Source: Sulfitobacter sp. THAF37 (GTDB lineage Bacteria; Pseudomonadota; Alphaproteobacteria; Rhodobacterales; Rhodobacteraceae). From it: a stretch of 64,000 bases of DNA. Below are positions 38,530 through 63,786 of the stretch, in pieces (positions within the stretch are counted from its first letter, which is position 1; each line of letters begins with the position of its first letter). Position numbers and translations under genes: made by a program. The notes under the pieces were generated by a model, which was not told where the DNA came from, did not search any database, and worked only from the letters and a program-made list of their open reading frames with translations. The stretch lies in the NCBI RefSeq assembly GCF_009363555.1, contig NZ_CP045377.1:34807-98806 (forward strand), written 5' to 3'.

Positions 38530-39006
38530 TCAGAGGTCGTGGACGCGAATTTTCTTCAGCATCGCCTGCATCACTTCAACACAGACGGCCAACTGCGCCG
38601 GGTCGATGCCTTCGGTCATGTGATGATAGTTGGCATTGACCACCGGCGCGGTTTCCCTGAGCTTCTTGCGGCCCTTGGCGGTCAGTGAAACGCGGCGCAC
38701 ACGCTGGTCGGAGGGGTCGATCTCGCGCTGTGCCAGTCCGGCGGTGACAAGCTGTTCGACCAGCCTGCTGACGGTGGATTGTTCTGTCACCGAAAGCACG
38801 GAGACTTCGTTGACCGTAAGCTGTTTATAGGCGGCGAGGCAGGCCATGATCCGCATCGTCGCACCCTGGATGCCGATGTTCTTGAGGTCGGCATCCTGTT
38901 TGACCTGCCAGCGGTTGGTCAGCCGTGTCATGAGATAGGGCAGGTATTGCGACAGCTGTTCCGGCGTTTTGAAGGGAAAGCCGAGGTCTTCGCTTTTCTT
39001 AGTCAT
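38530..39006 (-). CDS. MarR family transcriptional regulator (second of tandem pair)
   Basis: A 158-residue MarR protein with the winged helix region VLSVTEQSTVSRLVEQL and the wing REIDPSDQRVRRVSLTAKG. It starts at an ATG that overlaps the end of the other MarR gene by eight bases, so the two are translated together and might form a heterodimer or respond to different ligands. MarR proteins at aromatic catabolic loci commonly act as ligand-released repressors. The AT-rich palindromes at 39507, 43781, 52773, 54552 and 63821 are candidate sites for one or both. Confidence 0.9.
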   Translation of the reverse strand: MTKKSEDLGFPFKTPEQLSQYLPYLMTRLTNRWQVKQDADLKNIGIQGATMRIMACLAAYKQLTVNEVSVLSVTEQSTVSRLVEQLVTAGLAQREIDPSDQRVRRVSLTAKGRKKLRETAPVVNANYHHMTEGIDPAQLAVCVEVMQAMLKKIRVHDL

Positions 39007-39487
39007 TGTCCGCCGGAGCCTTGCCGCTTGGGCTCTTGATGATGGATTTGAGCATGGCGGTGGTTTCGCCAAGGCGGTCGCTGTCCAGATGTCCAAAGCA
39101 CTTTGCCAGGACATCGGCATGCAGCGCGGCGGCTTCTTCGAACCTTTGGCGGCCTGCCGGTGTCAGCACGGCGACAAAGGACCGCCTGTCATCGGCTGAC
39201 ATGGACTTGTCCACCAGCTCTTCCTTGCGCAGCCTGTTGACCAGGCCCGAGACGTTTCCGTTGCTGACCTTGAGCCTGGTCGAAAGGTCGCCCATGCTCA
39301 GACCCTCGGGATAGCGGGCCAGCTGGGCCATGACATCGAATTTCGAAACGCTGATGCCCGTCTGTTCCTTGAGCTGCCGGTTCACTTCGCGATAGACGAA
39401 ATTGTAAACGTCCAAAACACTGAGCCAGAGCCGTGTTTCGTCCTTGCGATAATCTGGAGGGTCGGAAGCCGGATCACGGGCCATCAT
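38999..39487 (-). CDS. MarR family transcriptional regulator (first of tandem pair)
   Basis: A 162-residue MarR protein with the helix-turn-helix segment MGDLSTRLKVSNGNVSGLVNRL and the wing KSMSADDRRSFVAVLTPAG. It follows the thioesterase gene after 31 bases that include an AT-rich half-palindrome (39507-39521), so it may have its own autoregulated promoter besides being at the end of the iorA-iorB-thioesterase operon. Confidence 0.9.
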   Translation of the reverse strand: MMARDPASDPPDYRKDETRLWLSVLDVYNFVYREVNRQLKEQTGISVSKFDVMAQLARYPEGLSMGDLSTRLKVSNGNVSGLVNRLRKEELVDKSMSADDRRSFVAVLTPAGRQRFEEAAALHADVLAKCFGHLDSDRLGETTAMLKSIIKSPSGKAPADND

Positions 39488-39506
39488 GTATCTATCTGCA
39501 TTCCCA

Positions 39507-39521
39507 TAATTTTACATACTA
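39507..39521. promoter_or_regulatory. AT-rich element TAATTTTACATACTA, candidate MarR site
   Basis: This 15-base element is 20 bases ahead of the first MarR start and shares TTTTACAT with the site at 43781-43798 (read on the other strand). It is less symmetric than the other four copies. Probable autoregulatory site. Confidence 0.4.
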
Positions 39522-40001
39522 GGGAGTATCCGAGAATAGAAACCGGTTCAATGCATCTCGAAGGTCGGTCGGAATGGCGACCGAGCGATGTGTGTCGAGA
39601 TCGGTGGTCACGGTTGTAAAGAGCCCGCGCAGCGCCTCTGTGTCGCCAAGCATCGCGTTCAGCTCAAGCGCGTAGGATTTGCCGCCGATCCTTGAGACCC
39701 GGACAAAGTACTCGACCTGGTCGCCCATCCGGACGGGCGAAAAGAACTCTGCATGTGCGTTGACATAGCCCAGTCCGATGCGGCGGGGGCCGATGAAGTC
39801 ATAGTAGTTCAGACCGAGGCAATCGCAGAACCATGCTTCGATCGCGTGATTGAATACGTTGAAGAATTCGGGCGTGTAGACAATGCCCGCCGGGTCGCAT
39901 TGCCCGTGGCGGAATATGTGCCTGTAGCTCCAGTCCGGGAAGGGGAGCGCAGCCCGGTCGAGAGGGCGCGGAAATGACGCGGAATTGTCGATCTTGTTCA
40001 T
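39519..40001 (-). CDS. acyl-CoA thioesterase, 4-hydroxybenzoyl-CoA thioesterase type
   Basis: A 160-residue hotdog-fold protein with the DHNA-CoA/4-hydroxybenzoyl-CoA thioesterase motif GQCDPAGIVYTPEFFNVFNHA; Asp36 is the likely catalytic residue. It would hydrolyse an aromatic acyl-CoA. It starts in an ATGA overlap with the iorB-type gene, so the natural substrate may be the acyl-CoA product of that oxidoreductase. Confidence 0.88.
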   Translation of the reverse strand: MNKIDNSASFPRPLDRAALPFPDWSYRHIFRHGQCDPAGIVYTPEFFNVFNHAIEAWFCDCLGLNYYDFIGPRRIGLGYVNAHAEFFSPVRMGDQVEYFVRVSRIGGKSYALELNAMLGDTEALRGLFTTVTTDLDTHRSVAIPTDLRDALNRFLFSDTP

Positions 40002-41575
40002 GTTTTCGAAAAACTCTCAATTGTCATGATCGTTCCGTCCAGTTCCTTGCTGGACGCATCCCTGATCGCAGATGTCAGAAGGCGGTTGGCCCATTCCGCT
40101 GCGTCATCGCGCCCTGCGATGGACTTTGTTGTCTGCATGACCTTTTCGAACTTCGAATGGCCGCGCACATGCGTATCCGAATACCCCTTGATCAGGCGCC
40201 GGAAGCCGAGCATCGCAACACCCAGGTCGTAATTATGCGTCAGGGCCTGCGATGCGTCGGCCAGCCAGGCATCCCTGTGCTCGGTCTCTGTCTTGTGGCG
40301 CAGGGACTTGCGGCGCATGCCCCGCAGCGCGCCGACAAAATGAAGCGGCAGAAACCCGATCAGGCGATAGGTCTGTATCCGACGGCCCCTGTCGATACGG
40401 CGATCCAGCCAGGCATAGAGAGATTTCCGTGATTTCAGCCAGTTGGCCAGCCCGACGGGCAGGACCGATGCGGCTTCTTCCATGCGGGGGTGCATGAATT
40501 CGGTGGTGTTGAGGACCTGGCCATCCTGTAGGCCCACTTCGTCAGCGACCCTCTGGCGCCGCGCGCTTTGCGTCTTGATGCGGGCAACGCGGATCACGTC
40601 GTCATATGCCATCGCATTGGCAAGGTATTTGGCGGCGGTTGTGGTGAACGCAAAGCCGTGTTCGGCACCGTTCGCGTCGCGGTCGCGCCGGTAGAGGTCG
40701 CGCAGGAGATCGAGGTATTCGTCGCCGTAGGCGGCATCCTGAAAGTCGACGACCTTTTGCAGCCCCAGATAGGCCATTTCATGCGCCTGTTCGGGAAGGT
40801 CCGCGCGAAGCCGCGAGAGCAGCGCATCTGCCCGCTTGTCGCGCAGCGATTGGGGCAGGGCGGCGACCGTGGCGGCCGTGCCCCCCGCATCGGCCGTCTC
40901 TGGATCCGCGCCGTTTATTGTTCGGTCGAAGGCAGCATCAAAGGCGCGGATGCTGGCCTCTACCCCCTTGCCGCCCTTGCGGATCACGTCATGGTAGGCT
41001 TCGCGCTCGAAGGGCAGGGTGCCGGATGCGGCAAGGCTGCCGAACATGGCCGACGAGATGACAGAGCCGTTCCTGACGGCCAGGGTGTTCATGTCAAAGA
41101 CGATTTCCTGTCGGGCGACCACGCCGATTGCATCCGTCACCGCGCCACTGTCGGCGATGCTGCCGCCCGGGGCGGTCTTTTCGCTGATCGCCAGCGACCG
41201 GTGGCTGGAGGCGATCAGGGTGGTCCGGTCGGGTGTCACGATCCCGCGCAGGATCGACCGGCCCGCTTCCATGAACTCGGAGGCGATCACCACGTCGACA
41301 TCGCCGGGCGTGGGCATCTGGGCGAGGACAGGCTTTTGCCCGCCGTCGCCGGGGCGCATCATCTCGACGTAATAGATGGTGGCCCCGGTTCGCTGGGCCA
41401 CGCCGGGCACGGAGGTGGATTGCGCCACCCAGCCGTGCGTTTCGGCAAGATCCACGATCCAGCCGGTCAGAACGCCGCCACCCTGGCCGCCCATCGCCAC
41501 GATCGCGATTGAGATCGGCCGCTCTGTCGCGGGGCCTGCGGGCTTCAGGCCCAGTTTGACGGTGTCATCTTTCAT
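39998..41575 (-). CDS. iorB: indolepyruvate oxidoreductase subunit beta family protein
   Basis: A 525-residue protein with an N-terminal pyruvate:ferredoxin oxidoreductase gamma-type domain (about 15-210, starting IAIVAMGGQGGGVLTGWI) and a long C-terminal extension (about 240-500) seen in the large IorB-like proteins of proteobacteria. With the adjacent alpha subunit it would decarboxylate an aryl 2-oxoacid to an acyl-CoA and reduce ferredoxin. The ATG at 41575 lies four bases after the iorA stop; a TTG five codons earlier is rejected. Confidence 0.86.
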   Translation of the reverse strand: MKDDTVKLGLKPAGPATERPISIAIVAMGGQGGGVLTGWIVDLAETHGWVAQSTSVPGVAQRTGATIYYVEMMRPGDGGQKPVLAQMPTPGDVDVVIASEFMEAGRSILRGIVTPDRTTLIASSHRSLAISEKTAPGGSIADSGAVTDAIGVVARQEIVFDMNTLAVRNGSVISSAMFGSLAASGTLPFEREAYHDVIRKGGKGVEASIRAFDAAFDRTINGADPETADAGGTAATVAALPQSLRDKRADALLSRLRADLPEQAHEMAYLGLQKVVDFQDAAYGDEYLDLLRDLYRRDRDANGAEHGFAFTTTAAKYLANAMAYDDVIRVARIKTQSARRQRVADEVGLQDGQVLNTTEFMHPRMEEAASVLPVGLANWLKSRKSLYAWLDRRIDRGRRIQTYRLIGFLPLHFVGALRGMRRKSLRHKTETEHRDAWLADASQALTHNYDLGVAMLGFRRLIKGYSDTHVRGHSKFEKVMQTTKSIAGRDDAAEWANRLLTSAIRDASSKELDGTIMTIESFSKT

Positions 41576-41579
41576 CTGT

Positions 41580-43745
41580 CTATGCCTCAAAGCTGACCGC
41601 CCGGCTTTCGCGGCGGTCTTGCAGGTAGCGGATCACGGAGCCGGAGAGATTGGACCTGAACCTGTCCCACCGTGTCGGATTATGGGTGACTTCGGCGCGG
41701 AAGAAGGAGGGGCAAAGCACGGCAGCGTCGGCCACTTCGCCACAGTTGCCGCAGGCGACGCAGGTGTCGTCAATCGACGCCACGGGATCGTCGCGCAAGG
41801 GATCGTCCAGTTCCTTGACCGACAGCGACGGACAGCCCGACAGCCGCATGCAGGCGTGATCGCCGGTGCAGACATCTTCGTCGACGCCGAACTTTTCCTT
41901 CACCACCCGTTTGCCGCCCTTGATCGCCCTGGCGACCTGCGGTTTCACGCGGCGCTGCTTGTTCAACATGCATTCGGACGACGCCACGATGATCTTGGGC
42001 CCTTCGGCATCCGTGGTCAGCGCCTCGTTCAGGACATCGCGCATGCGGGTCACGTCGTAGGTGTGGTCCACCTGCCGGACCCATGTCGCGCCGATCCCCT
42101 TGACCGCATCGACGATCGAATTGTTGGTGTTGCGCCGCTTGTTATGGGCGCGGGACGACAGGATGTCCTGACCGCCGGTGGCGGAGGAATAGAAGTTGTC
42201 GACGATGACAAAGACGCCGTCATGCTTGTTGAACACCGCGTTGCCGATGCCGCTGGTCAGCCCGTTGTGCCAGAACCCGCCGTCGCCCATGATCGAGATC
42301 GAGCGTTTGGCGCCCTTGACGTTGAAGGCCGCCGAGGAGGCGGGGCCAAGGCCGAAGCCCATTGTCGTGGCACCCAGGTTGAAGGGCGGCAGGATCGAGA
42401 ACAGGTGACAGCCGATGTCAGCCGAAACATGGTGCGTGCCGGTTTCCTCGAACACCATTTTCATGGCGGCAAAGATGGGCCGTTCGGGGCACCCGGTACA
42501 CAGCCCCGGCGGGCGGGCCGGGACAACGTCGGTCAGTTTTTCGACCACGGGATTGGTCAGGATCGGAACCGGATCGGGCACCGGGGCGCGGTTGCCCAAT
42601 TGCTGGGGCTCGAAATCCTCAAGGAAACGACCGATCCCTTCGGTCAGGACGGCGGCGGTATAGTCGCCGCCCATCGGCAGGTAATCCTTGCCGTGCACTT
42701 CGGTCGGGCTTTTCGTGCGGGCCAGGACGGTCGAGATGGATTGCTCGATATATTCGGGCTGGCCTTCCTCGATCATCAGCACGGCATCGAGACCTTTGCA
42801 GAATTCTTCGACTTCGGATTTGATCGTCGGATAGGCCACGTTCATCACGTAGATCGGCACGCGCGAATTGCCGTAGGCGTCGCACAGGCCCAGGAACTGA
42901 AGCGCGCGGATGGTGCTGTTGTACATGCCGCCGACGACAATGAGGCCGGTCTTGCCGGTCTTCTCCTCTCCGGTAGGGCCGAAGAATTCGTTGAGCTTCT
43001 GGTCGCGGATAAAGTCGATGGCGGTGGGCATGCGCACCTCGATCTTTTCGACCTCGTGCGCGTAGGCGGCGGGCGGCAGAACGATGCGGCCCAGATCGCG
43101 TTCGGGGTTGTCCATCGCGTCGCGCAGGGTGAATTCGGGGCGCTTGTTGTCCTTGCATTGAAATTCGCCCGTCATGTGACAGGACCGCACCCGCACCTGC
43201 AGCATGACCGGCGTGTTGGAGGCTTCGGACAGTTGGAACCCTTTTTCGATCAGATCGACCATGCAGGCCTGATCGGGGCGGGGGTCCAGCAGCCACATCT
43301 GCGATTTCATCGCAAAGGCGTGGGTGCGCTCCTGCATGATCGACGACCCTTCGCCGTAGTCCTCGCCGACGATCACCATCGCGCCGCCGGTCACGCCGCC
43401 AGAAGCAAGGTTGGACAACGCGTCCGAGGCCACGTTGGTGCCCACGGTCGATTTCCACGCCACAGCGCCGCGCAGGGGATACATGACGGAGGCAGAGAGC
43501 ATTGCACCCGCGGTCGCCTCGCTGGCCGAGCTTTGAAAGACCACGCCGAGATCGTCCAGAATGTCATTGGCGTCCGCCAGCACATCCATCAGGTGCGAGA
43601 TCGGCGAGCCCTGGTAGCCGCCGACATAGGCGACACCGGATTGCAGCAGGGCCTTGGTGATTGCAAGGATACCCTCACCGCGGAACAGGTCGCCCTCACC
43701 TAGTTTGAGGTCCTGGACTTCTTTCGCAAAGGATCGCTCAGCCAT
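41580..43745 (-). CDS. iorA: indolepyruvate ferredoxin oxidoreductase alpha subunit family protein
   Basis: A 721-residue subunit with an N-terminal pyrimidine-binding domain (AYVGGYQGSPISHLMDVLAD), a thiamine-diphosphate domain with GDGGFWHNG and a downstream DNFY, and C-terminal ferredoxin clusters (CTGDHACMRLSGCPS and CVACGNCGEV). The family oxidatively decarboxylates aromatic 2-oxoacids such as indolepyruvate to acyl-CoA. The ATG at 43745 has GGAGA upstream. Given the Rieske dioxygenase and cyclase genes, isatinate (2-aminophenylglyoxylate) is an alternative substrate; this is inference. Confidence 0.9.
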   Translation of the reverse strand: MAERSFAKEVQDLKLGEGDLFRGEGILAITKALLQSGVAYVGGYQGSPISHLMDVLADANDILDDLGVVFQSSASEATAGAMLSASVMYPLRGAVAWKSTVGTNVASDALSNLASGGVTGGAMVIVGEDYGEGSSIMQERTHAFAMKSQMWLLDPRPDQACMVDLIEKGFQLSEASNTPVMLQVRVRSCHMTGEFQCKDNKRPEFTLRDAMDNPERDLGRIVLPPAAYAHEVEKIEVRMPTAIDFIRDQKLNEFFGPTGEEKTGKTGLIVVGGMYNSTIRALQFLGLCDAYGNSRVPIYVMNVAYPTIKSEVEEFCKGLDAVLMIEEGQPEYIEQSISTVLARTKSPTEVHGKDYLPMGGDYTAAVLTEGIGRFLEDFEPQQLGNRAPVPDPVPILTNPVVEKLTDVVPARPPGLCTGCPERPIFAAMKMVFEETGTHHVSADIGCHLFSILPPFNLGATTMGFGLGPASSAAFNVKGAKRSISIMGDGGFWHNGLTSGIGNAVFNKHDGVFVIVDNFYSSATGGQDILSSRAHNKRRNTNNSIVDAVKGIGATWVRQVDHTYDVTRMRDVLNEALTTDAEGPKIIVASSECMLNKQRRVKPQVARAIKGGKRVVKEKFGVDEDVCTGDHACMRLSGCPSLSVKELDDPLRDDPVASIDDTCVACGNCGEVADAAVLCPSFFRAEVTHNPTRWDRFRSNLSGSVIRYLQDRRESRAVSFEA

Positions 43746-43780
43746 TTTCGTCTCCTCAAAAAAAGTATGGTAATGAATAG

Positions 43781-43798
43781 ATTTATATGTAAAATAAG
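43781..43798. promoter_or_regulatory. AT-rich palindrome in iorA/nitrilase divergent promoter
   Basis: The element TTTATATGTAAAATA (43782-43796) with flanking A/T lies 36 bases ahead of iorA and about 150 bases ahead of the nitrilase gene. It matches TTTAATATATAAAATA at 63821-63836 at most positions. A MarR dimer bound here could control both divergent operons. Confidence 0.5.
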
Positions 43799-43947: not shown

Positions 43948-45006
43948 ATGTTGCCATCAAATGACTTTCCCAGGTTCACGGCTGCGGCGGTTCAGGCGAG
44001 CCCGGTGTTTCTGGACGCGGCGCGGACGGTGGAAAAGGCTGTCAGCCTGATCGGCGAAGCCGCCGGAAATGGTGCGCGGCTTGTGGTGTTTCCCGAGGTG
44101 TTCATCCCCGGATACCCCTATTGGAACTGGATCACAGACCCGGTGACGGGGGGCGCGTGGTTTGAGAAACTCGTGCGGGCCTCGGTCTTTGCCGATGGGC
44201 CGGAGGTTGCAAAGGTTCAGGCCGCTGCCCGGTCCAACGACTGCTATGTGGTGATGGGGTTGAACGAACGCAGTCCCGTATCGCTGGGCGCGCTTTACAA
44301 TACCTTGCTGTTCATCGGGCCGGATGGCGCGATCCTGGGCAAGCACCGCAAGCTTGTCCCCACCTGGGCGGAGAAACTGACCTGGACGGGGGGCGACGGG
44401 TCCAGCCTCAGGGTCTATGATACGGAAATCGGGCCGCTGGGCGGGCTTGCCTGCGGTGAGAACACGAACACGCTGGCGCGGTTCACCCTGCTGGCGCAGG
44501 GCGAGCTGGTGCATACGGCCAGCTATATCTCGTTGCCGGTGGCGCCGAAGGATTACGACATGGCCGAGGCGATCAAGCTGCGCAGCATGTCGCACAGCTT
44601 TGAGGGCAAGGTTTTTACCGTGACCGCCACCTCGACGGTCTCGGACGAGATCATCGCGGCGATGGAGGAGATCCGCCCGGATGCGCGCGACCTGCTGGAA
44701 CGCAAATCCAGTGCCTATTCGGGCGTTATCGGCCCTGACGGGCGCGAGGTCGTTCCCGGCCTGATCGACGACGAAGGTATCGTCTATGCGGAGATCGACC
44801 TGGGCAAATGCATACAGCCCAAGCAGATGCATGACATCACAGGCCATTACAACCGGTTCGACATTTTCGATCTGCGGGTCAACCAGGTGCCGCAGGGGGC
44901 CGTCAATCTGAAGACCGGCCCGGCCCCCGCGCCGGACCCGAGTGCGGTGCCGATGCCGGACGACAGCGAAGAATCCCAATCCGATCAAGACTGGAGGAAA
45001 CCATGA
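43948..45006 (+). CDS. nitrilase/carbon-nitrogen hydrolase
   Basis: A 352-residue nitrilase-superfamily enzyme with the full catalytic triad: Glu50 in VVFPEVFIPGYPYWNW, Lys135 in GKHRKLVPT and Cys169 in GLACGENTN. True nitrilases convert a nitrile to an acid plus ammonia. The WNW and CGENTN signatures are those of nitrilases on larger or aromatic nitriles rather than of omega-amidases. In this context indole-3-acetonitrile or another arylacetonitrile is a reasonable guess. The stop overlaps the cupin gene start by ATGA. Confidence 0.88.
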   Translation: MLPSNDFPRFTAAAVQASPVFLDAARTVEKAVSLIGEAAGNGARLVVFPEVFIPGYPYWNWITDPVTGGAWFEKLVRASVFADGPEVAKVQAAARSNDCYVVMGLNERSPVSLGALYNTLLFIGPDGAILGKHRKLVPTWAEKLTWTGGDGSSLRVYDTEIGPLGGLACGENTNTLARFTLLAQGELVHTASYISLPVAPKDYDMAEAIKLRSMSHSFEGKVFTVTATSTVSDEIIAAMEEIRPDARDLLERKSSAYSGVIGPDGREVVPGLIDDEGIVYAEIDLGKCIQPKQMHDITGHYNRFDIFDLRVNQVPQGAVNLKTGPAPAPDPSAVPMPDDSEESQSDQDWRKP

Positions 45007-46121
45007 CTGATACTGCCGATAGAGACGATGTTCTGGGCCGCGCGAGGGTGCGCGACACGCCGGAGCTTGAAGCCTATTACGCGGATCTGGCAAAACAGGA
45101 CACCGGCGCGCTTTGGACTGTTGCCAATGCGATCGAACCCTGGGAGCCGACGCCAACGTCCGATCCCGTGCTGTGGCGCTGGGACGACCTGCGGCCCCAG
45201 GTTCTGCGGGCCATTGATCTGGTGCGGCCAGAGGATGCAGGCCGGCGCGTCGTCTACCTGCGCAACCCCAGGCGGCAGGAATTCAGTGCCGCCTGCGGGT
45301 GGCTGTTCTCGGGCATCCAGACGATGAAAGCGGGCGAACGCGCTGGTGCCCACCGTCACGCGGCCTCTGCCCTGCGGTTCATCATGGAGGGCACGGGGGC
45401 CTACACGATTGTCGAGGGCCACAAGATGAGTCTGGGCGCGAAGGATTTCGTGCTGACCCCCAATGGCACATGGCACGAGCACGGGATCGAGGAAGACGGC
45501 AGCACCTGCCTGTGGCAGGACGGGCTGGACATTCCGCTGACCAACGCGCTGGAGGCGAATTTTTACGAGGTGCATCCCGACGATTATCAGGTCAGCAACC
45601 TGCCGCTGGACGACAGCCCGGCGACCTATGGCTCCCCCGCGCTGATGCCCGAGCTGGACAAATGGGATCAGCCCTATTCGCCGCTGCTGAAATTCCGCTG
45701 GGACCAGACCTATGAGGCGCTGCAGGAATACGCACGGGTCACGGACGGGTCGCCCTATGACGGGGTGATCATGCGTTACATCAACCCCAAGACCGGCGCG
45801 GACCCGATGCTGACCATGGGGGCCAACATGCAGCTCTTGCGCCCGTCCGAGCATACAAAGGCGCATCGGCACACCGGCAACATCATCTATCAGGTGGCCA
45901 AGGGCGAAGGGTACTCCGTGATCAACGGCAAACGCTTTGACTGGAAGGAAAAGGACATCTTCTGCGTGCCGCCGTGGATGTTCCACGAACATTGCAACAC
46001 GCAAAGCGGCGAGGATGCCTGCCTGTTCTCGTTCCACGACCTGCCGACGATGCGCAAGCTGGGCTTTTACGCGGAACAGGCATTGGAAGACAACGGCGGC
46101 CACCAGGTCGTCAGCGGATAA
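45003..46121 (+). CDS. gentisate 1,2-dioxygenase family bicupin
   Basis: A 372-residue double-cupin protein of the gentisate/salicylate/1-hydroxy-2-naphthoate dioxygenase family. The iron ligands are probably His117 and His119 (GAHRHAASALRFIMEG) and His158 or His160 (GTWHEHG). It would cleave a hydroxylated aromatic ring between the carboxylated and hydroxylated carbons. The two following genes fit the lower gentisate pathway. Exact substrate (gentisate, or an amino analogue such as 5-hydroxyanthranilate) cannot be read from sequence. Confidence 0.88.
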   Translation: MTDTADRDDVLGRARVRDTPELEAYYADLAKQDTGALWTVANAIEPWEPTPTSDPVLWRWDDLRPQVLRAIDLVRPEDAGRRVVYLRNPRRQEFSAACGWLFSGIQTMKAGERAGAHRHAASALRFIMEGTGAYTIVEGHKMSLGAKDFVLTPNGTWHEHGIEEDGSTCLWQDGLDIPLTNALEANFYEVHPDDYQVSNLPLDDSPATYGSPALMPELDKWDQPYSPLLKFRWDQTYEALQEYARVTDGSPYDGVIMRYINPKTGADPMLTMGANMQLLRPSEHTKAHRHTGNIIYQVAKGEGYSVINGKRFDWKEKDIFCVPPWMFHEHCNTQSGEDACLFSFHDLPTMRKLGFYAEQALEDNGGHQVVSG

Positions 46122-46137
46122 CTACAGGATACAAAAC

Positions 46138-47055: not shown

Positions 47056-47056
47056 C

Positions 47057-51029: not shown

Positions 51030-51031
51030 CG

Positions 51032-56197: not shown

Positions 56198-56985
56198 GTG
56201 CCGTCTCCCTCCACCAGGGCGACCACCCGCAGCGGGCTGCCCGATCCGCCCTCGATCTTGAGCGGGCAGGCCACGATGAGCGCCCCGAAGGTGGGCAGTT
56301 TGTCCAGGTTCGTCAGGCACTGCAGGCCGAACCTGCCGTTGCCGTGCAGGATCGAATGGGCGGGCAGGGGCGGATTGAAGGTGCTCGCCTGCCCGGCATC
56401 GGTGCCGACCGTCTCGACCGCAAGGCCGATGCAGTTGCGGTCGTGGACCAGAAATTCGACGGCGCCCGCATCCGGCCCCGGCGAATGCGCACCGTCTTCG
56501 AGCAGGTTCAGGTATTCCGCTGTCCCGACCCTCTTGTACCAATCGGTGCGCAGGGCGATCCAATGGTCGGGGGGGATGGTGCCGTTGTCCGCTTCCCAGT
56601 GTTCAAGGAAATCGCGGGTCAGCACAAAGTCCGCGTCAGCGGCGGCTTCCTTGGATATGTCGATCACCACGGCGGGGGCGACAAAGTCCTGCGCCGGGAT
56701 GGCATCCACCGTGTTCGACGGCAGATCCTTGCCCGTCACCCAATGCGCCGGGGCATCGAAATGGGTGCCGGTGTGTTCGTTCATCGAAATGTTGTTCCAG
56801 TACCAGGCCGGTCCGTTTTCGTCGTAGCGGGACAGCTTTTCCATCCGGAACGGAGCACATTGGCCGAACTCGGCCGGCAGCACGATGACCGGGAAATCCG
56901 GGCTGAGCGTGTTGGTCAGGTCGATGACGCGCACCTGGCCGGATGCCAGCGCCCCCGCGAGATCCGCAAGTACGGTCTTGGTCAT
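56194..56985 (-). CDS. cyclase family metal hydrolase (isatin hydrolase/kynurenine formamidase type)
   Basis: A 263-residue protein of the Cyclase family with the metal motif HTGTHFDAPAH (His71, His75, Asp77, His81). The family includes isatin hydrolase, which opens isatin to isatinate, and bacterial kynurenine formamidase; both act on indole-derived compounds. In an operon with a Rieske dioxygenase, CoA ligases and an aldolase-like pair, isatin hydrolase is the more attractive role. The start overlaps the upstream fusion gene by ATGA. Confidence 0.85.
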   Translation of the reverse strand: MTKTVLADLAGALASGQVRVIDLTNTLSPDFPVIVLPAEFGQCAPFRMEKLSRYDENGPAWYWNNISMNEHTGTHFDAPAHWVTGKDLPSNTVDAIPAQDFVAPAVVIDISKEAAADADFVLTRDFLEHWEADNGTIPPDHWIALRTDWYKRVGTAEYLNLLEDGAHSPGPDAGAVEFLVHDRNCIGLAVETVGTDAGQASTFNPPLPAHSILHGNGRFGLQCLTNLDKLPTFGALIVACPLKIEGGSGSPLRVVALVEGDGT

Positions 56986-58220
56986 TTGTTTTCCTCACGA
57001 ATTGTCAGAAGCGGATCGTCCTGCCAGCGGGTCAGCACATCCTTTGCGACTTCGTCGGCACAGATGGTTTCCTGCCCCTGCTGAAGGGCTGTCACCACTG
57101 CGCGTGCGATCTGTGCCGGTGCGGTCTTGGGCGGCGGCACGGTCTGATGCCAGCCGTCGTCCACCGGGCCGGTCAGGACAGACATGATCCGGATCCCGGT
57201 TTGCGCCATTTCACCGCGCAGGCTGGCGATCAGCGATAGCCGTGCGGCGGCGGCGGCGGACGATCCGGCATAGCCCGCCCGCCCGGTCAGCCCGTGGATG
57301 GAGGCGATATCGACCAGGGCGGCGGCGGACCGATCACCATCGTCGGACCGCGCCGAAAGGGCCGGTGCAAAGCCCTGCGCGAGCCGCATCAGCCCCGTGA
57401 CTTCCAGGTCAAGCCCGGATTGCAGATCGTTCAGGTTGCCCCCGAACCCGACACCCCCCTGGCGGGCGAACCGGGCCGTGTTCACCACGATGTCCACGCG
57501 CCCGCCCAGCTGCCCGGCCAGCGCCTCGATGCTGCGGGTGTCGGTCAGGCTCAGCCTGACGGGTTCGATCCCGGGGGTGGCCTCGATCCTGTCCTGTCCG
57601 GGATAGCGCATCAGGGGGTCGGCGTTGCCAAGGAAAACCGTCTTTGCGCCCGCCTTGAGCAGCGCCTCGGCGACGGCCTGCCCGGTCGCGGTCCGGCCGT
57701 CGGTCACAAGGATGCGCCGGTACTTCGGGTCGGCGGTAAAGACCCGCAATTGGGGATCGTCAGCCATATGTGGCGTCTCCTTTTCCGGCATGGCAAAGAG
57801 TGCCGGATTGCCGGACCTGTCAAGCTTCAACTCCATTCGGACGCGGTCGCCCCGGCCCACATCGCCGTGCAGATGCACGGTTGCCATCGGACCCGCATCC
57901 AGCCGCGCGGATCCGATGCGCCAGGGCAGGTGGTCCTTGAAAAACAGGTCGATGGAGCTGCGGATCGTCGTCTCTGCCTCGATCACCGCGCCTCGGGGCT
58001 GGTCCTGCCAGCGCAATTCGCCCCAGCAGAACGGGCAGCGGTCGCGCTGCGGATAGGTGGCCCTGGCGCAATCTTCACAGACCTGCAGCACAAAGCGCCC
58101 CAGACCGGCGCGCGCCGCCATGGCCGTGGCCGCGCGGCTGCGCAGGGCGGGAGGGACATGGCCCGCAGGGGTGACGACCAGCGGGTCCTTGCGCTTGGGC
58201 GGTGTCAGCGGGTCGGTCAT
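56982..58220 (-). CDS. fusion: Zn-ribbon/OB-fold (DUF35) + degenerate SDR
   Basis: A 412-residue two-domain protein. Residues 40-145 are a DUF35 protein with zinc ligands Cys48, Cys51, Cys62 and Cys65 and an OB-fold. Residues 165-410 have an SDR fold in which the glycine motif reads TDGRTATG and the catalytic YxxxK reads YAGSS (Tyr317, no Lys at 321). The SDR part is probably structural or uses another chemistry. An ATGA overlap with thiolase-fold copy B predicts a complex between them. The SDR half could start alone at a Met near residue 152, but no clear ribosome site was seen. Confidence 0.85.
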   Translation of the reverse strand: MTDPLTPPKRKDPLVVTPAGHVPPALRSRAATAMAARAGLGRFVLQVCEDCARATYPQRDRCPFCWGELRWQDQPRGAVIEAETTIRSSIDLFFKDHLPWRIGSARLDAGPMATVHLHGDVGRGDRVRMELKLDRSGNPALFAMPEKETPHMADDPQLRVFTADPKYRRILVTDGRTATGQAVAEALLKAGAKTVFLGNADPLMRYPGQDRIEATPGIEPVRLSLTDTRSIEALAGQLGGRVDIVVNTARFARQGGVGFGGNLNDLQSGLDLEVTGLMRLAQGFAPALSARSDDGDRSAAALVDIASIHGLTGRAGYAGSSAAAAARLSLIASLRGEMAQTGIRIMSVLTGPVDDGWHQTVPPPKTAPAQIARAVVTALQQGQETICADEVAKDVLTRWQDDPLLTIREENK

Positions 58221-59392
58221 CGCAGCACCTCCTGCTCCAGAACGGCGGCACCGGTGCAGATGCCGCGATCGTAATTCACCAGGCCGAAGCCTGAGATCAG
58301 GGCGCGTGTCGCATCCGGCACCTGGTCCCCCAGTGGCGCCCGCAAGATCTGCCGCAGCCCTTCGGTCACGTTCTGAAAACCGCCGGCGGCACCGGCCTGC
58401 CCTGCGGACAGCTGCCCGCCGTTTGTATTGAGCGGCACAGAGCCGGTGATCGTGAAATCGTTCTCTGCGATGAATTGCGAAAGCGCCGCCTTGTCGCAAA
58501 ACCCCAGATCGGCCAGTTGCATGGCCACGATCACCGGGTAATCGTCATAAAACTGGACCGTGTGCATGTCCTGCGGGCCGCACCCCGCGGCTGACCACAG
58601 ATCGTCAATGTCGCGCGCCCAGCCGCCGCGGGTCTGCACGGGGTCTTCGGCATAGGCATTGTGCCGTTCGATCGTCGCGGCCAGACGCGCGGTGGACAGC
58701 CCCAGGTCCTGCGCTTTCTCAGGCGTTGTCACGACAAAGGCTTCGGCCCCCGCACAGGGCATGACGCAATCGAACAGGTGGATCGGGTCGGAGATGGGCC
58801 GCGCCTGCATGTACTGGTCGTGACTCAGCGGCTTTTTCATCAGCGCAAGCGGGTTCGACAGGGCATTCGCCCTTTGCGCGACGCAGAGTTTCGCGAAATC
58901 CTCGCGCGAGACGCCGTATTCGCGCATGAAGTTATCGGCGATCAGCGCGAAGGTCGCGTTGGGCCCGCCAAAGCCGTAGGGATAGGTGGCATCCTGTGAA
59001 AACCGCGAAAAGCCCTGCAAGGTCTGGCGGAAGCTGTCGATCTGGTTGGTGTCGGCGGCGACACATGCCACGATGTCGGCATCGCCCGCCTGAACAGCCC
59101 GCGCCGCGCGGCGCAGGGCCATGACGCCGCTGGCCCCGCCGGTGGGGATGTGATCCATCCAGCGCGGGCTGAGCCCCAGATGTTGCACCATGCCGACAGC
59201 CGTGTCCGGTCCGGCGGAGAAACTGGCAAAGCAGAAGCCGTCGAAATCGGCGGGACCCAGCCCGGTCTGGCGCGACAGGGCGGCCAGGGCGCCGCCGGTC
59301 CACCAATGCGCGGTCTTGTCGGAGAACCGGGCATAGGGAACGGTGACAGGCGCACAGACGGCAACGCCGTCATAGGGTTTCTGCCGGGCCAT
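58217..59392 (-). CDS. thiolase-fold protein without canonical thiolase residues (copy B)
   Basis: A 391-residue paralogue of copy A. It reads PTGGASG (83-89) at the nucleophile position and SAGQAGAAGG with Gln332 at the GHP position, so it lacks the usual Cys and His as well; YDDYP (282-286) is retained. It is coupled to the DUF35-SDR fusion and to the ligase gene (TGATG overlap). A retro-aldol or related cleavage of an aryl-hydroxyacyl-CoA is a good working hypothesis. Confidence 0.85.
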   Translation of the reverse strand: MARQKPYDGVAVCAPVTVPYARFSDKTAHWWTGGALAALSRQTGLGPADFDGFCFASFSAGPDTAVGMVQHLGLSPRWMDHIPTGGASGVMALRRAARAVQAGDADIVACVAADTNQIDSFRQTLQGFSRFSQDATYPYGFGGPNATFALIADNFMREYGVSREDFAKLCVAQRANALSNPLALMKKPLSHDQYMQARPISDPIHLFDCVMPCAGAEAFVVTTPEKAQDLGLSTARLAATIERHNAYAEDPVQTRGGWARDIDDLWSAAGCGPQDMHTVQFYDDYPVIVAMQLADLGFCDKAALSQFIAENDFTITGSVPLNTNGGQLSAGQAGAAGGFQNVTEGLRQILRAPLGDQVPDATRALISGFGLVNYDRGICTGAAVLEQEVLR

Positions 59393-61005
59393 CAGCTCGT
59401 GCGTTTCTTCAGATGCCGGGTGTCGATGAACCCGTCTGTTTCAAAGGTTTTCACCAAGAGGTCCTTCAACTGACCCCTGAGGATTTTCTGTGTGGCGGTC
59501 AGGGGCAGGTCATCCACAAAGGCGATCCAGCCGGGGGCCTTGTAGTATGCCATCTGATCCAGCGCCCAGGTCACGATCTCTTGCGCCCTGGCCGCGTTGG
59601 CTTCGCCGCCCTCCAGGATGATGAACACCGCCACCTCGTCCCCGCGCACATCGTCCGGGGCGGCGGCGGCGGCACAGGCGTTGATGTCGGGGTGCCGGTT
59701 CAGGATCGATTCCACCTCCACCGCCGAGATGTTTTCACCCGATCGGCGGATCACGTTCTTCTTGCGGTCCACGAAGTGCAGAGATCCGTCCGCGTCCTGC
59801 TGGACGACATCGCCGGTGTGCAGCCACCCGCCCTGCCAAAGCGCGTCGGTTGCTTCGGGGTTCTTCAGGTAGCCCGAGAAGAAGCCATAGCGCGGGTTGT
59901 CACCGGCCCGGCGCACGAGCATTTCACCACGTTCGCCGGGGGGGACGTCCTGGCCCGCATCGTCGACAACGCGGACTTCCACGTCTTTCTCGGGTCGGCC
60001 AAAACAGGCGGTTCCCGTCTTGCGCGGCTCTTCGTTGGCGCAGATGACACCGCCCGATCCGGTCTCGGTGCAGGCCCAGGCTTCGATCAGGGGGAAACCG
60101 TAGCGTTCTTCGAAAGGGTCATGCAGCTTGGCGTCCACGCCCGCGCCAAACCCGAAACGGACATTGTGATTGCGGTCGTCTTCGGAAGGATCGGCGCGCA
60201 TCAGCATGGGCGGCATGACACCCAGATAATGCACCACGGTCGCCGCGCTTTCGCGGACCGAGGCCCACCAGCTGCGGGGGTGGAACCGATCCAGCATGAT
60301 CAGACAGCCGCCCGCCGTGATCATCGCCATCACCGACACCGCCATCGCGTTCATGTGGAAGACGGGCAGGGGGGTCAGCATCCGCTCCTCGCCCTGCCGC
60401 AGGCTGATGTGGCCCCCGGCATTGGCGTACCAGTCACCGGAGTAGAGGTAATATTCGTTGGACAGGATGCAGCCCTTGGGCTTGCCCGTGGTCCCCGAGG
60501 TATAGAGCAGGGCGCATTCCGTCGCCGTGTTCGGCACCGTCTCTGCCGACGCGGGGCGGATGGCCGGGGGCAACGCGTCTTCGGGTGAGATGACAAGTGT
60601 CGGGATCGCGGCATTTGCCACGGCGGTCTTCATTTCTTCGAGCCGCCCGGACAGAACAATCGCCAGGATCATTTCGGAGTGTTCGGCCAGATACTCAAGC
60701 TCAGCCAGCCGCAGGTCCGGATTGATCGGCACCACGGAGGCCCCGAGGGCATTCAGCGCCAGCCAGATCTCCAGAAAAACGGGACGGTTTTCCAGCAGCA
60801 GGCCCACGCGATGACCGGCGCCATATCCGGCGTCCTTGAACCGCTTGCGCCAGTCCTCCACCCTTTTCGCCATCTCGTCATAGCTGATGTCGCCCGGCGC
60901 GATGCCGTAGGCCTGTGCCGTTTCCTCCAGCACATGCAGAAAGGCGGCGTCGCCCTGTCTTGCCGCGGTATCGCTGAATCGGGTGTACACGGTTTCGTTG
61001 TTCAT
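59392..61005 (-). CDS. AMP-dependent acyl-CoA ligase
   Basis: A 537-residue adenylate-forming ligase with LLYTSGTTGKPKGC, ACTETGS, LHTGDVVQQDADG, DRKKNVIRRSGENISAVEVE and a C-terminal TQKILR Lys. Placed between the Rieske dioxygenase and the thiolase-fold gene, it is the best candidate for activating the oxygenation product to its CoA ester. It begins seven bases after the dioxygenase beta-subunit stop. Confidence 0.9.
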   Translation of the reverse strand: MNNETVYTRFSDTAARQGDAAFLHVLEETAQAYGIAPGDISYDEMAKRVEDWRKRFKDAGYGAGHRVGLLLENRPVFLEIWLALNALGASVVPINPDLRLAELEYLAEHSEMILAIVLSGRLEEMKTAVANAAIPTLVISPEDALPPAIRPASAETVPNTATECALLYTSGTTGKPKGCILSNEYYLYSGDWYANAGGHISLRQGEERMLTPLPVFHMNAMAVSVMAMITAGGCLIMLDRFHPRSWWASVRESAATVVHYLGVMPPMLMRADPSEDDRNHNVRFGFGAGVDAKLHDPFEERYGFPLIEAWACTETGSGGVICANEEPRKTGTACFGRPEKDVEVRVVDDAGQDVPPGERGEMLVRRAGDNPRYGFFSGYLKNPEATDALWQGGWLHTGDVVQQDADGSLHFVDRKKNVIRRSGENISAVEVESILNRHPDINACAAAAAPDDVRGDEVAVFIILEGGEANAARAQEIVTWALDQMAYYKAPGWIAFVDDLPLTATQKILRGQLKDLLVKTFETDGFIDTRHLKKRTS

Positions 61006-61012
61006 GCCTGCC

Positions 61013-61486
61013 TCAGATAAAGAGCTGGATGTTGCTGAATGGCGCGTCGAAATTGATCAGATTAATGCGTTTTAGTTTGATCTGCAACGTCCCGTCCACC
61101 TCGACCAGTTCGTGACTGACCCAGCCGGAATAGCGTTCCAGCAGATCGCCCCGCGTTTCCGTGTATATGAACGAGGTGCGCAGTTTATGCACGCCCCCGT
61201 CTTCACCCATCGACAGGATGCGCGGGCGCTCCATCAGGTGATGGCAGCGGCTTTTGGGTTTCTGGCTGAAGGTGCGCTCGCCCGCCAGCCGCTCCACCCG
61301 GACGGTCAGCAGCAACCGGTCTTCGTACATCAGCGACGGCTGCAGGATCGGATCTTCCTGCTGCCATTCAAGCGGCATCCAATAGCGTCCGTCCTTGTGA
61401 AACAGGGCCAGCCAGTCGTCCCAGCGCATCTGGTCGATCGTGGCGGCCTCGTCATAGACAAAGTCGATCAGGTCATCGCGGTTCAT
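61013..61486 (-). CDS. aromatic-ring-hydroxylating dioxygenase beta subunit
   Basis: A 157-residue protein of the SnoaL-like ring-hydroxylating beta-subunit family, with the DEAATIDQMRWDDWLALFHKDGRYWMPL start and the SRCHHLMERPRILS stretch typical of these subunits (each motif given in part). It supports the trimeric alpha-beta dioxygenase. The ATG at 61486 overlaps the alpha-subunit stop (ATGA); longer upstream frames are antisense or out of phase with alpha. Confidence 0.88.
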   Translation of the reverse strand: MNRDDLIDFVYDEAATIDQMRWDDWLALFHKDGRYWMPLEWQQEDPILQPSLMYEDRLLLTVRVERLAGERTFSQKPKSRCHHLMERPRILSMGEDGGVHKLRTSFIYTETRGDLLERYSGWVSHELVEVDGTLQIKLKRINLINFDAPFSNIQLFI

Positions 61487-62823
61487 TCTGCGGCCTCCAC
61501 GGCTTGGTCCATGTTCTGCACCATGAATTTCCGCCATGCATAGAACTGATTGCGCATCTGGCGTTCGGAAGTGCCGTTGACGACCTCGGTCGTCTCTTCG
61601 GGTTCGTCGTCTTCCCAGAGCCTGCGCAGGTTGACCCATTCGTTGCCGTTGGAGTGCAGGCCTTCCTGCGCGCGCTCATACATCTCCAGATCGTCATGGC
61701 CGACAATCGAGGTGGGTGCGTTGATGAAGCGGTTATACATCAGGGCGCGTTCATAGAGCTTGTCCGGCGCACCCTTCAGCCTGAACACCCAGCTTTCCAC
61801 CAGTGTCTTGTCGACCCCAAGCGGGATGAAGTTGCGCAGGATGCCGACCGGGCCCTTCACCATGATATTGGGAAAGTAGATCGTGTTGTGCCGGATATCG
61901 CCCAGGATCTCGGCGGCGCGTTCCTTGCCGTAGGCCTCGGTCATCATGGCCTGATAGCCGTCCACGTCTTCGTAATCCTGATGGATCGACCCGGACACGC
62001 CGGTATGGCCATGACCGTTCGGCCAGACGCGGATGCCCGCGCCTTCGTAGAATTCATAGGGGCTCATGAAAGGCGCATAAAGCTGCACGGCCATGGGGGT
62101 TTCGCTGAAGTTGTCCTTCTCGCGTTCCCAGACGTTCACCGCGGTTCCGGCTGAACTTTCATGCGCGACCATCGGGTGGCAGGTGTCGGTCTGGTTCTCG
62201 ACCAGCATCTTCCAGTTGCAGGTATGCATGTAGCGGATCGGCTGGCTGATCACCTCAAGCTCGCCCTCGGGGGAACGGTCGGCCATGTTGTCGATCGTGG
62301 AGAGCGCATCGCCAAAGAATTCTTCGAAACTCAGGCCCTCTTGCGCCAGTCGCACGAAGATCAGACCGCGATAGATCTTTACGTTCTCGATCCGTGTCAG
62401 GCCCCTGGCCGCCTGATCGGTGTCGAACCCCGTGCCCTCGTAGCCCTTTTTCAGCGGAATCGCGAGAAGCGAGCCATCAGTCTTGAACGACCAGGCATGA
62501 TAGGGGCAGCGAAAGAACTTGCCGGTGTTGCCGCAAGGCTCGGAGGCGATCTTGACCCCCTTGTGCGGGCAGCGGTTGTGCAGGACATAAACCTGCCCGT
62601 CGCGGTGCCGGGACGCCAGAACCGGCTGGTTGCCGATCTTTGACGTGATGAAGTCGCCGGTATTCTTCAACTGGCTTTCGTGCCCGATGTAGACCCAGCA
62701 ATTGGGGAAAAGCTGCTCCATCTCCAGCTCGAAGATTTCGCGGTCCACATAGACGTCACGGTGTACGGCGTGGCCCTTGACCAAATCGGCGATGGCTTGG
62801 GAATTTCCGCGATAGCGGTCCAT
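61483..62823 (-). CDS. Rieske non-heme iron dioxygenase alpha subunit
   Basis: A 446-residue oxygenase large subunit. The Rieske cluster is bound by Cys85 and His87 (CPHKG) and Cys106 and His109 (CPYHAW); the mononuclear iron by His216 and His221 (DTCHPMVAH) plus a later Asp. It would hydroxylate an aromatic or indolic substrate with O2 and electrons from the reductase encoded upstream. In known auxin-degrading bacteria a comparable enzyme oxidises indole-3-acetate; here that substrate is inference from context. Confidence 0.94.
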   Translation of the reverse strand: MDRYRGNSQAIADLVKGHAVHRDVYVDREIFELEMEQLFPNCWVYIGHESQLKNTGDFITSKIGNQPVLASRHRDGQVYVLHNRCPHKGVKIASEPCGNTGKFFRCPYHAWSFKTDGSLLAIPLKKGYEGTGFDTDQAARGLTRIENVKIYRGLIFVRLAQEGLSFEEFFGDALSTIDNMADRSPEGELEVISQPIRYMHTCNWKMLVENQTDTCHPMVAHESSAGTAVNVWEREKDNFSETPMAVQLYAPFMSPYEFYEGAGIRVWPNGHGHTGVSGSIHQDYEDVDGYQAMMTEAYGKERAAEILGDIRHNTIYFPNIMVKGPVGILRNFIPLGVDKTLVESWVFRLKGAPDKLYERALMYNRFINAPTSIVGHDDLEMYERAQEGLHSNGNEWVNLRRLWEDDEPEETTEVVNGTSERQMRNQFYAWRKFMVQNMDQAVEAAE

Positions 62824-62841
62824 GGCAGTCTCCAGTTCAGA

Positions 62842-63786
62842 TCAGATATCAATGACAAGCTTGGGCGTCTTCGACCGCGACACGCAGATCTGCATGACGT
62901 TGTTCGCCGCCTTTTCGCTGTCGGTCAGAATGACATCCCGGTGGTCGGGGATGCCGTCGATCACCTCGCACTGGCAGATCCCGCAGTCGCCGCGCTGGCA
63001 ATCGTAAAGGGGGTCAAGGCCCGCCTCCTCCAGCGCCTCGATGATCGTCTTGTCGGCGGGGACATGCACGATCTGGCCGGTGCCGTGAATTTCGACATCG
63101 AATGCCGTATCCTCCGCCGTAGGGGTCGCGGCGGTGAACAGTTCGTAATGCACACGCTCTGCCGGCCAGCCCAGATCGGCGGCGACGGATTTGACCGCCT
63201 CGATCATGCCCGCCGGTCCGCAGAAGTAGACATGCGCACCGTCGGGGGCCTTCTCCAGGATATCGTTCAAATCCATCCTGCTGGGCTGATCGTCGTAATG
63301 CAGGTGCAGCCGGTCGCCGCAGATCTCCTGCATCTCCTTCACAAAGGCGAGCTTCCCTTCGGAACGACCGGCATAATGAACCTCGAACGCGCGCCCGCGA
63401 GAGGCCAGCTCTGCCGCCATGGAGAGAATCGGCGTGATCCCGATGCCGCCTGCGATCAGGACGGCAGGTTCGGGATGGTCGCCCAGTTCAAAGTGGTTTG
63501 CAGGGTTGGAAATCCGGATCCTGTCTCCCGGCTTGAGTTCATGCATGAAGGTCGAGCCGCCGGTGCTCTGCGCCTCGCGCAGCACGCCAAGCGCCAGGTG
63601 CCCCGGCTGCAGCCCGGGCAGCCGCAGCAGCGAATATGACCGGTCCCCCCCGTCGCGCAGGCTGACACGGACATGTGCGCCCGCTGTCCACACCATCGGG
63701 ATCGGCGCCGAAGGTTTCACCTCGATGCGTTTCACATCCTCGGTCTCTTTCGAAACGGCGATGACTTCGTAGCCTATGGACGGCAT
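62842..63786 (-). CDS. phthalate-dioxygenase-reductase-type oxidoreductase (flavin, NAD, 2Fe-2S)
   Basis: A 314-residue electron-transfer protein with a flavin domain (RSYS at 49-52), an NAD domain (GGIGITPI at 113-120, YFCGP at 187-191) and a C-terminal plant-type 2Fe-2S domain (Cys263, Cys268, Cys271, Cys301). It passes electrons from NADH to the Rieske dioxygenase in one polypeptide. It is the first gene of the long leftward operon; an AT palindrome at 63821 lies 35 bases ahead of its ATG. Confidence 0.94.
   Translation of the reverse strand: MPSIGYEVIAVSKETEDVKRIEVKPSAPIPMVWTAGAHVRVSLRDGGDRSYSLLRLPGLQPGHLALGVLREAQSTGGSTFMHELKPGDRIRISNPANHFELGDHPEPAVLIAGGIGITPILSMAAELASRGRAFEVHYAGRSEGKLAFVKEMQEICGDRLHLHYDDQPSRMDLNDILEKAPDGAHVYFCGPAGMIEAVKSVAADLGWPAERVHYELFTAATPTAEDTAFDVEIHGTGQIVHVPADKTIIEALEEAGLDPLYDCQRGDCGICQCEVIDGIPDHRDVILTDSEKAANNVMQICVSRSKTPKLVIDI

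Follow-up and report, generated by a model that had tools for sequence, protein, structure and literature searches.

What becomes of indole-3-acetate (IAA) in a marine bacterium, given that published work on the iad genes of auxin degradation stops at anthranilate? The question is raised by a locus of Sulfitobacter sp. THAF37 in a 64,000-nucleotide stretch of DNA (the window), the rightmost part of contig C6 (98,806 bases) in a 4.26-Mb genome. Judged from homology, this locus of a Sulfitobacter-related marine member of the Rhodobacteraceae is an iad-type IAA catabolic gene set with a core of known kind, and it also holds a ring-cleavage operon. With all steps taken jointly, an iad-type auxin regulon extended by this operon is the reading that we favour and hold to be probable. 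The extension operon is conserved and was not found described, and its exact chemistry is a proposal worth testing. The original prediction for this DNA, a regulon degrading IAA or a related indolic acid through isatin, was partly supported, its core being right but largely published.

The iad-type core

Domain and homology matches across the locus confirmed the gene families that had been named in the original prediction (Table 1). The Rieske oxygenase subunits IadD and IadE, for which proteins were compared with Variovorax through PDB entries, matched their counterparts well above the next families (557 versus 144 bits and 151 versus 41 bits, respectively), the next distinct family for IadD being 3-phenylpropionate dioxygenase. 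Alignment to the nine IAA-pocket positions of Ma 2023 (PMC10374108; here and below, published work is cited from the parts of each paper that were available) showed that eight are kept in the window IadD; the other, L211, is Q in this protein and in 103 other aligned sequences, Variovorax being the sole exception. Orthology and pocket residues together argue for IAA as the substrate, as predicted. Moreover, IadA/IadB (IorAB), a CoA ligase, a thiolase, an SDR and a cyclase are all encoded near iadCDE.

The iad locus of Variovorax paradoxus CL14 (PMC9613470; PMC10374108; PMC12633357) resembles that of the window in its IadCDE orthologues, CoA ligase, thiolase-type protein and SDRs, and further in the IadI cyclase, IadAB corresponding to IorAB, two MarRs and an anthranilate branch via isatin. 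By contrast, it uses the ABC binding protein IadK2 where the window has a TRAP transporter, and the second ligase/thiolase/DUF35 set belongs to the window only. Conway 2022 (PMC9613470) describes iad-like loci with MarR regulators and an isatin-to-anthranilate route, and the legend to Extended Data Figs 4-5 of that paper includes IorA/IadA and IorB/IadB in such loci; iorAB, originally taken for an addition to the known loci, is thus iadAB.

The predicted ring-opening cyclase is an isatin hydrolase, with a whole-length match of 367 bits to isatin hydrolase A of Labrenzia aggregata (5nnb, PMC6117287) and the metal-binding motif; the window enzyme is known from its sequence. The nucleophilic cysteine is missing from the two thiolase-fold proteins and, at its position as read from the alignment, from 43 of 43 aligned thiolase-fold sequences; each of the two proteins has a DUF35 partner as in Ltp2/ChsH2-type retro-aldolases. 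These pairs agree better with a retro-aldolase than with a ketothiolase, which supports the predicted type of cleavage. A cysteine-less thiolase fold with a DUF35 partner is also found in the Ltp2-type protein 6ok1, which we take to be an aldolase; the predicted substrate of the window pairs would be an oxindole acetyl-CoA, compared to a steroid side chain for 6ok1. The direct release of isatin in this step was not supported: dioxindole, not isatin, builds up when iadI is lost (Jiang 2025, PMC12633357), so that study does not describe isatin as set free directly by a retro-aldol cleavage. According to the same source, the Rieske enzyme yields a mono-oxygenated product and IadJ forms dioxindole-3-acetate, so the assignment of both oxidations to the Rieske step alone is not supported.

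The ligase and thiolase/DUF35 sets are both doubled in the window. In a tree of 28 sequences, thiolase 1 forms its own branch, confined to window-type loci. The racemase-family protein (54611-55384) might racemise a dioxindole-type intermediate.

A ring-cleavage operon tied to the iad genes

The genes for the nitrilase-family hydrolase, the cupin, the FAH-family hydrolase and the maleate isomerase are contiguous. No mention of such an operon was found in the available parts of the iad papers, including those on Variovorax, which agrees with the prediction that the nitrilase-gentisate part is an addition. The isomerase shows whole-length similarity to maleate cis-trans isomerase and keeps both conserved cysteines, which are catalytic in that enzyme; maleate isomerase also occurs in nicotinate pathways. 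The cupin does not reach the cut-off of the curated gentisate 1,2-dioxygenase family TIGR02272 (282 versus 442.1 bits). True nitrilases carry the catalytic cysteine motif CWE; the window protein lacks it and falls short of the Nit6803-type family TIGR04048 (220 versus 502.6 bits), and CGENTN stands at the catalytic cysteine in 48 of 48 iad-linked nitrilase hits (duplicates included). Compared to the gentisate pathway, with which the window shares a gentisate-type cupin and an FAH protein, no maleylpyruvate isomerase was seen in the window, and a maleate isomerase and a nitrilase-family enzyme are present instead.

The distribution of these genes was followed in 60 genomes (22 plus 40, less two duplicates with identical coordinates, G186 = G298 and G263 = G312; L026 left out). 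They are a non-random set of IadD-bearing genomes, most of which come from the top 80 among at least 563 confirmed loci and from the family search; orthologues were taken at ≥60% identity, the cupin match of G321 is partial, and the iad-type cupin of the host genome is outside the 60. The iad-type cupin is present in 37 of the 60. The iad-type nitrilase occurs in 16, all of which have the cupin on the same strand no more than 1.1 kb away, and in none of the 23 cupin-less genomes (Fisher p 1.5e-4, kinship ignored). In G062, the nitrilase-cupin pair lies mid-contig on C54 (585 kb) and iadD on C7; the contigs of G233 are too short to tell. As the nitrilase is always near the cupin, a link with ring cleavage appears closer than one with the supply of indole-acetonitrile; this pattern of occurrence was not found in the available parts of the literature. 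The original suggestion of a nitrilase releasing IAA from indole-3-acetonitrile is possible, but the distribution of the gene follows the ring-cleavage cupin, not iadCDE.

A feeder role could nevertheless extend to the aminotransferase and aldehyde dehydrogenase encoded to the left of the locus, so that indole-3-acetonitrile, tryptamine and indole-acetaldehyde would all be turned into IAA, with the aminotransferase as a possible amine-to-aldehyde step and the dehydrogenase as a possible indole-acetaldehyde-to-IAA step. Both genes probably belong to the neighbourhood, since homologues lie inside relatives' loci: in G297, the aminotransferase homologue (72% identical) is between iorA and the nitrilase gene, and the aldehyde dehydrogenase homologue (67%) is within the locus. 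In fact, the two genes stand between iorA and the nitrilase gene in G270, G297, G299 and G300; the nitrilase has true nitrilases as its nearest relatives of solved structure, and it is dispensable where the cupin stays. However, its strict proximity to the cupin, with the pair far from iadD in G062, and its absence from cupin-less genomes argue against the feeder role, as do G302, G305, G062 and G233, where it has the cupin beside it and not the aminotransferase/dehydrogenase pair. In addition, a different nitrilase lineage (CWEN) takes the place beside FAH in three separate, free-standing cupin-FAH operons (L156, L157 and L158, of G138, G234 and G329). We regard the feeder set as plausible but short of likely.

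The operons L156, L157 and L158 have the order cupin-FAH-nitrilase(CWEN)-small protein with a divergent regulator, and the cluster of the small protein holds a flavin-reductase-domain protein in G310. A search for another amidase beside the cupin of nitrilase-less genomes yielded these three cases only; the remaining nitrilase-less cupin loci had a neighbour of the flavin reductase type (one member tested) and no recognised amidase. Two of the 30 loci mapped (G299 and G162) gave no cupin and were left out. A further operon, L152 (G092:C27), comprises cupin, FAH, an IadF-like ligase and an isatin hydrolase (81%), with a thioesterase and a MarR opposite, a box copy and a second, distant Rieske system; it is separate from the iadD of G092 (C1).

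The iad loci of Bradyrhizobium and Alcaligenes (L016, L036, L063 and others) are like that of the window in iorAB, MarRs, C-D-E, an F-type ligase and a thiolase of the thiolase-2 type, and further in the isatin hydrolase and cupin-FAH, with the nitrilase in some, but they differ in gene order. The 40-kb maps for G302 and G304, of this group, showed no maleate isomerase homologue.

A shared operator-like box

An AT-rich box lies in three promoters in the window, those of iorA/nitrilase, thiolase 2 and the reductase, for which 100 dinucleotide-preserving shuffles gave 0 expected matches. In the iorA/nitrilase (or aldehyde dehydrogenase) intergenic region, a block of ~40 bases is near-identical in the window, G295, G296, G297, G270, G299 and G300, and its flanks diverge. 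Sites with at most three mismatches occur at four places in the host genome, three of them in this locus, against one match of the reversed control pattern; as the pattern was built from two of the sites, only the third match in the locus is independent. A matrix made from window-type loci (threshold 12; highest of six window shuffles 15.6) was applied to loci not used in it. It matched before the cupin operons of G304 (L124, 27.6), G092 (L152, 33.7) and G233 (L163, 20.9), as well as ~60 bases before a 5-hydroxylase-type gene of Bradyrhizobium SZCCT0153 (L123, 23.7); at the same threshold, no site was found in L136 (the 5-hydroxylase operon of the host), L115 or the cupin operon of G062 (L162). 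The nitrilase-cupin, iadC and thiolase-2 operons share one operator-like box, a feature not found in the available parts of the literature and a candidate for MarR-type co-regulation in line with the MarR-regulated single regulon originally predicted, and one of the two encoded MarR regulators presumably binds it.

A 5-hydroxylase-type gene beside iad genes in relatives

In Alcaligenes SORT26, a gene between those of the thioesterase and the cupin, codirectional with the iad genes, encodes a 778-residue protein of NCBIfam NF006101 (salicylyl-CoA 5-hydroxylase/oxidoreductase; 1302 bits, cut-off 1078). The whole array, in one direction, reads iorA-iorB-marR-thioesterase-5-hydroxylase-cupin-FAH-nitrilase-isatin hydrolase-C-D-E-F-G-DUF35-SDR, whereas the window has no hydroxylase. 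A search of 23 genome entries, two of them representing one genome, found a full-length homologue in 22. The homologue is encoded at most ~5 kb from an iad gene in G302, G303, G307, G308 and G311, adjoins a second isatin hydrolase in G306, is 25 kb off in G300, and lies elsewhere in the remaining entries, including the host; a crude binomial probability for the linkage, which ignores relatedness, is very small. Alcaligenes and some Rhizobiales place a salicylyl-CoA-5-hydroxylase-type enzyme beside iad genes, a linkage not found in the available parts of the literature. The 5-hydroxylase of the 2-aminobenzoyl-CoA pathway of anthranilate is of the same family (NF006101) as the enzyme whose gene adjoins iad genes in these relatives. 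Membership of the same regulon is indicated for Bradyrhizobium SZCCT0153 by the box and for Alcaligenes by the position of the gene.

A 745-residue BTAi1 gene first taken as the 5-hydroxylase was rejected when a homology search gave no match there. A flavin hydroxylase sought near the iad locus through PF01494 was set aside because the matches were too numerous, at 22-50 per genome among the matches listed. A FAD_binding_3 protein is encoded ~1 kb beyond the Hoeflea operon.

Proposed pathway

We propose that the TRAP transporter would import IAA, which IadCDE and an SDR would oxidise to dioxindole-3-acetate; a CoA ligase would activate this product, and the cysteine-less thiolase/DUF35 retro-aldolase, together with an SDR, would shorten the side chain. 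Isatin hydrolase would then open the ring to isatinate, and IorAB would oxidatively decarboxylate isatinate to anthraniloyl-CoA. All steps after anthranilate we infer. A CoA-level 5-hydroxylase, in the host the unlinked homologue on contig C1, would convert anthraniloyl-CoA to 5-hydroxyanthraniloyl-CoA, from which the 4HBT thioesterase would release 5-hydroxyanthranilate (or gentisate). Acting as a 5-hydroxyanthranilate 1,2-dioxygenase, the cupin would cleave the ring between the carboxyl- and amino-bearing carbons to an amide, maleamoyl-pyruvate; the FAH protein would split off pyruvate, leaving maleamate, from which the CGEN-type nitrilase homologue, as a maleamate amidase, would remove the nitrogen, and the isomerase would convert maleate to fumarate. 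One MarR-type box would co-regulate the operons.

An amide arising from gentisate-type cleavage would account for the presence of a C-N hydrolase and a maleate isomerase beside the cupin and the FAH protein. With an earlier loss of the amine, the cupin would work on gentisate and the nitrilase would be free to be a feeder. This nitrogen-retaining route, fed by IorAB and a salicylyl-CoA-5-hydroxylase-type enzyme, is put forward tentatively, and as a whole it is doubtful. As to precedents, Claus and Kutzner 1983 showed the conversion of IAA to gentisate in Alcaligenes according to PMC8383072, but proposed gentisate from indole according to the differing account of PMC6221969. Nocardia opaca converts anthranilate to 5-hydroxyanthranilate (PMC4539516), and 5-hydroxyanthranilate is not cleaved by 5-nitrosalicylate dioxygenase (PMC10306065).

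Points against the favoured reading and further alternatives

Several observations weigh against an auxin regulon extended by the ring-cleavage operon, or against parts of it. Anthranilate was obtained from iadC-K2 without iadAB (Jiang 2025, PMC12633357), so the conversion of isatinate to anthraniloyl-CoA by IorAB, also part of the original prediction, is chemically apt but unproven. The 5-hydroxylase-type gene of the host (C1:2475097) is unlinked to the locus and lies, with no box in L136, in a separate six-gene operon together with SDR, MarR, enoyl-CoA hydratase, acyl-CoA dehydrogenase and CoA ligase genes; since this operon resembles the 2-aminobenzoyl-CoA pathway, anthraniloyl-CoA may go there instead. 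In addition, 21 of the 37 cupin genomes are without the iad-type nitrilase, the closest solved cupin (3bu7, of Silicibacter pomeroyi) is named gentisate 1,2-dioxygenase, and MarR1, as read from an alignment, lacks two of the three residues that contact the carboxylate in Variovorax MarR_73. Finally, a second IadCDE set is encoded in the same genome (C1:1662264-1663598; L113, L114, L115), its IadD being 62% identical to that of the window, so IAA may not be the only or main substrate of the window copy.

The ring-cleavage operon might accordingly act on true gentisate, or on another gentisate precursor, for a different aromatic acid, with anthraniloyl-CoA entering the 2-aminobenzoyl-CoA pathway on C1. 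The name of 3bu7, the complete-looking operon of that pathway and the 23 IadD genomes without the cupin are consistent with such a division of labour. However, the cupin operon and iadC have the same operator box, and the cupin operon adjoins iad genes in Alcaligenes and Bradyrhizobium. Moreover, a second cupin, 33-42% related, is present in 17 of 24 genomes including the host, where it (C3:25734) is more gentisate-dioxygenase-like than the window cupin (TIGR02272 382 versus 282 bits), although neither reaches 442. We consider this alternative rather unlikely.

The neighbours of the IadCDE set on C1 are genes for a TRAP transporter and a glycerate-2-kinase-like protein as well as phosphonate genes, and no iadF-J or iorAB homologue was found within the 40 kb analysed; two full iad loci in the genome, an idea considered earlier, were therefore rejected. 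That the window locus degrades another indolic acid while the C1 copy handles IAA would fit the two IadD copies, the doubled ligase and thiolase/DUF35 genes and the restricted branch of thiolase 1, but it is improbable in view of the bare surroundings of the C1 copy and the identical pocket residues of both IadD proteins.

Relatives, boundaries and coordinates of the locus

Within the top 80 among at least 563 confirmed loci, the closest named ones are those of Sulfitobacter sp. DFL-14 and EhC04, whose IadD is 96% identical. At E ≤ 1e-100, IadD was found in 26 of 295 same-family genomes searched, the host among the 26. The iad locus of L018, a record titled Frankia sp. RB7, clusters with Bradyrhizobium in the IadD tree, and the record is probably mislabelled. 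The last base of the window is the end of contig C6, so anything beyond the reductase promoter is cut off. A frame near this right end (63787-64000) runs off the contig and looks divergent from iadC.

Table 1. Features of the iad-type locus and its flank in the window, with positions, strand and supporting matches.
Feature	Position	Strand	Evidence
Class III aminotransferase	32375..33742	+	Pfam Aminotran_3; NCBIfam PRK07481 734 bits; outside range of original prediction
Aldehyde dehydrogenase, nearest phenylacetaldehyde dehydrogenase StyD	36975..38477	+	NCBIfam StyD 663 bits, under cut-off 850; outside range of original prediction
MarR regulator 1	38530..39006 (start set by relatives' length)	-	Pfam MarR; best solved match 7KYM, Conway 2022 entry
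MarR regulator 2	38999..39487	-	Pfam MarR; best solved match 3boq, 146 bits
4HBT_2 acyl-CoA thioesterase	39519..40001	-	Pfam; homologue beside iorB or cupin in several relatives
IorB/IadB, 2-oxoacid oxidoreductase beta subunit	39998..41590 (longest frame)	-	NCBIfam PRK08312 672 bits, above cut-off 348
IorA/IadA, thiamine pyrophosphate-dependent alpha subunit	41580..43745	-	TPP_enzyme_C; IOR_alpha 273 bits, under cut-off 651; start at conserved MAERSFA
Operator-like box, iorA/nitrilase divergent promoter	43766..43797	.	Kept in 7/7 relatives' intergenic regions; 0 in shuffles
Nitrilase-superfamily hydrolase	43948..45006	+	CGENTN, not CWE, at catalytic cysteine; 4-base overlap with cupin gene
Gentisate-type bicupin ring-cleavage dioxygenase	45003..46121	+	3bu7 714 bits; TIGR02272 282 bits, under cut-off 442.1
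FAH-family hydrolase, proposed acylpyruvate hydrolase	46132..47055	+	Pfam FAA_hydrolase 241 bits
Maleate cis-trans isomerase (racemase fold)	47057..47833	+	4fq7 346 bits, residues 9-258; both conserved cysteines kept
AMP-forming CoA ligase 2	47920..49542	-	Clusters with second ligase from loci in Bradyrhizobium and Phyllobacterium
TRAP transporter large subunit DctM	49554..51035 (start approximate)	-	Domain match
TRAP transporter small subunit DctQ	51032..51559 (start approximate)	-	Domain match
TRAP solute-binding protein DctP	51633..52631	-	Domain match
Weak fourth box copy before DctP	52772..52789	.	3 mismatches; matrix score 18.0 vs 15.6 top of 6 shuffles
DUF35 (ChsH2-type) protein, thiolase 2 partner	52872..53279	-	Domain match
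Thiolase-fold protein 2, without nucleophilic cysteine	53276..54472	-	Clusters with single iad thiolase of Bradyrhizobium
Palindromic, perfect-looking box copy before thiolase 2	54554..54573	.	Pattern match
Asp/Glu/hydantoin racemase-family protein	54611..55384	-	Homologues in Bradyrhizobium iad loci, 45-49%
SDR dehydrogenase, IadJ candidate	55478..56197	-	Many relatives have SDR beside Rieske genes or isatin hydrolase
Isatin hydrolase (IadI)	56194..56985	-	5nnb isatin hydrolase A 367 bits, 5e-109; HTGTHFDAPAH motif
Fused DUF35-SDR protein (IadH-like)	56982..58220	-	Both domains in one frame; 412 aa in L007
Thiolase-fold protein 1, without nucleophilic cysteine (IadG position)	58217..59392	-	Best solved relatives 9myr, 6ok1 (lipid-transfer proteins)
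AMP-forming CoA ligase 1 (IadF)	59392..61005	-	Clusters with Alcaligenes IadF-position ligases
Rieske oxygenase beta subunit, IadE	61013..61486	-	7yls_A Variovorax 151 bits; next match 41
Rieske oxygenase alpha subunit, IadD	61483..62823	-	9o71/7yls Variovorax 557/554 bits; 8/9 pocket residues
Reductase, IadC	62842..63786	-	Fer2 and NAD-binding domains; adjoins iadDE
Operator-like box before iadC	63806..63837	.	Equivalents before iadC in L007, L008, L009, L011

Significance

A 2018 review (PMC6221969) states that the gene behind the gentisate branch in the degradation of anthranilate/indole had not yet come to light, and the operon linked to the iad genes offers candidate genes for this branch. 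If true, a nitrogen-retaining route would take auxin breakdown all the way to central metabolism in alpha- and betaproteobacteria and would fill the gentisate branch of anthranilate catabolism. Moreover, the conserved linkage suggests for an unusual clade of nitrilases a role that can be tested, and offers a DNA box that may define the regulon. The locus would also place auxin degradation in algae-associated marine bacteria, its nearest named relatives being the two Sulfitobacter isolates, and auxin has been discussed as a cross-kingdom signal for such bacteria.

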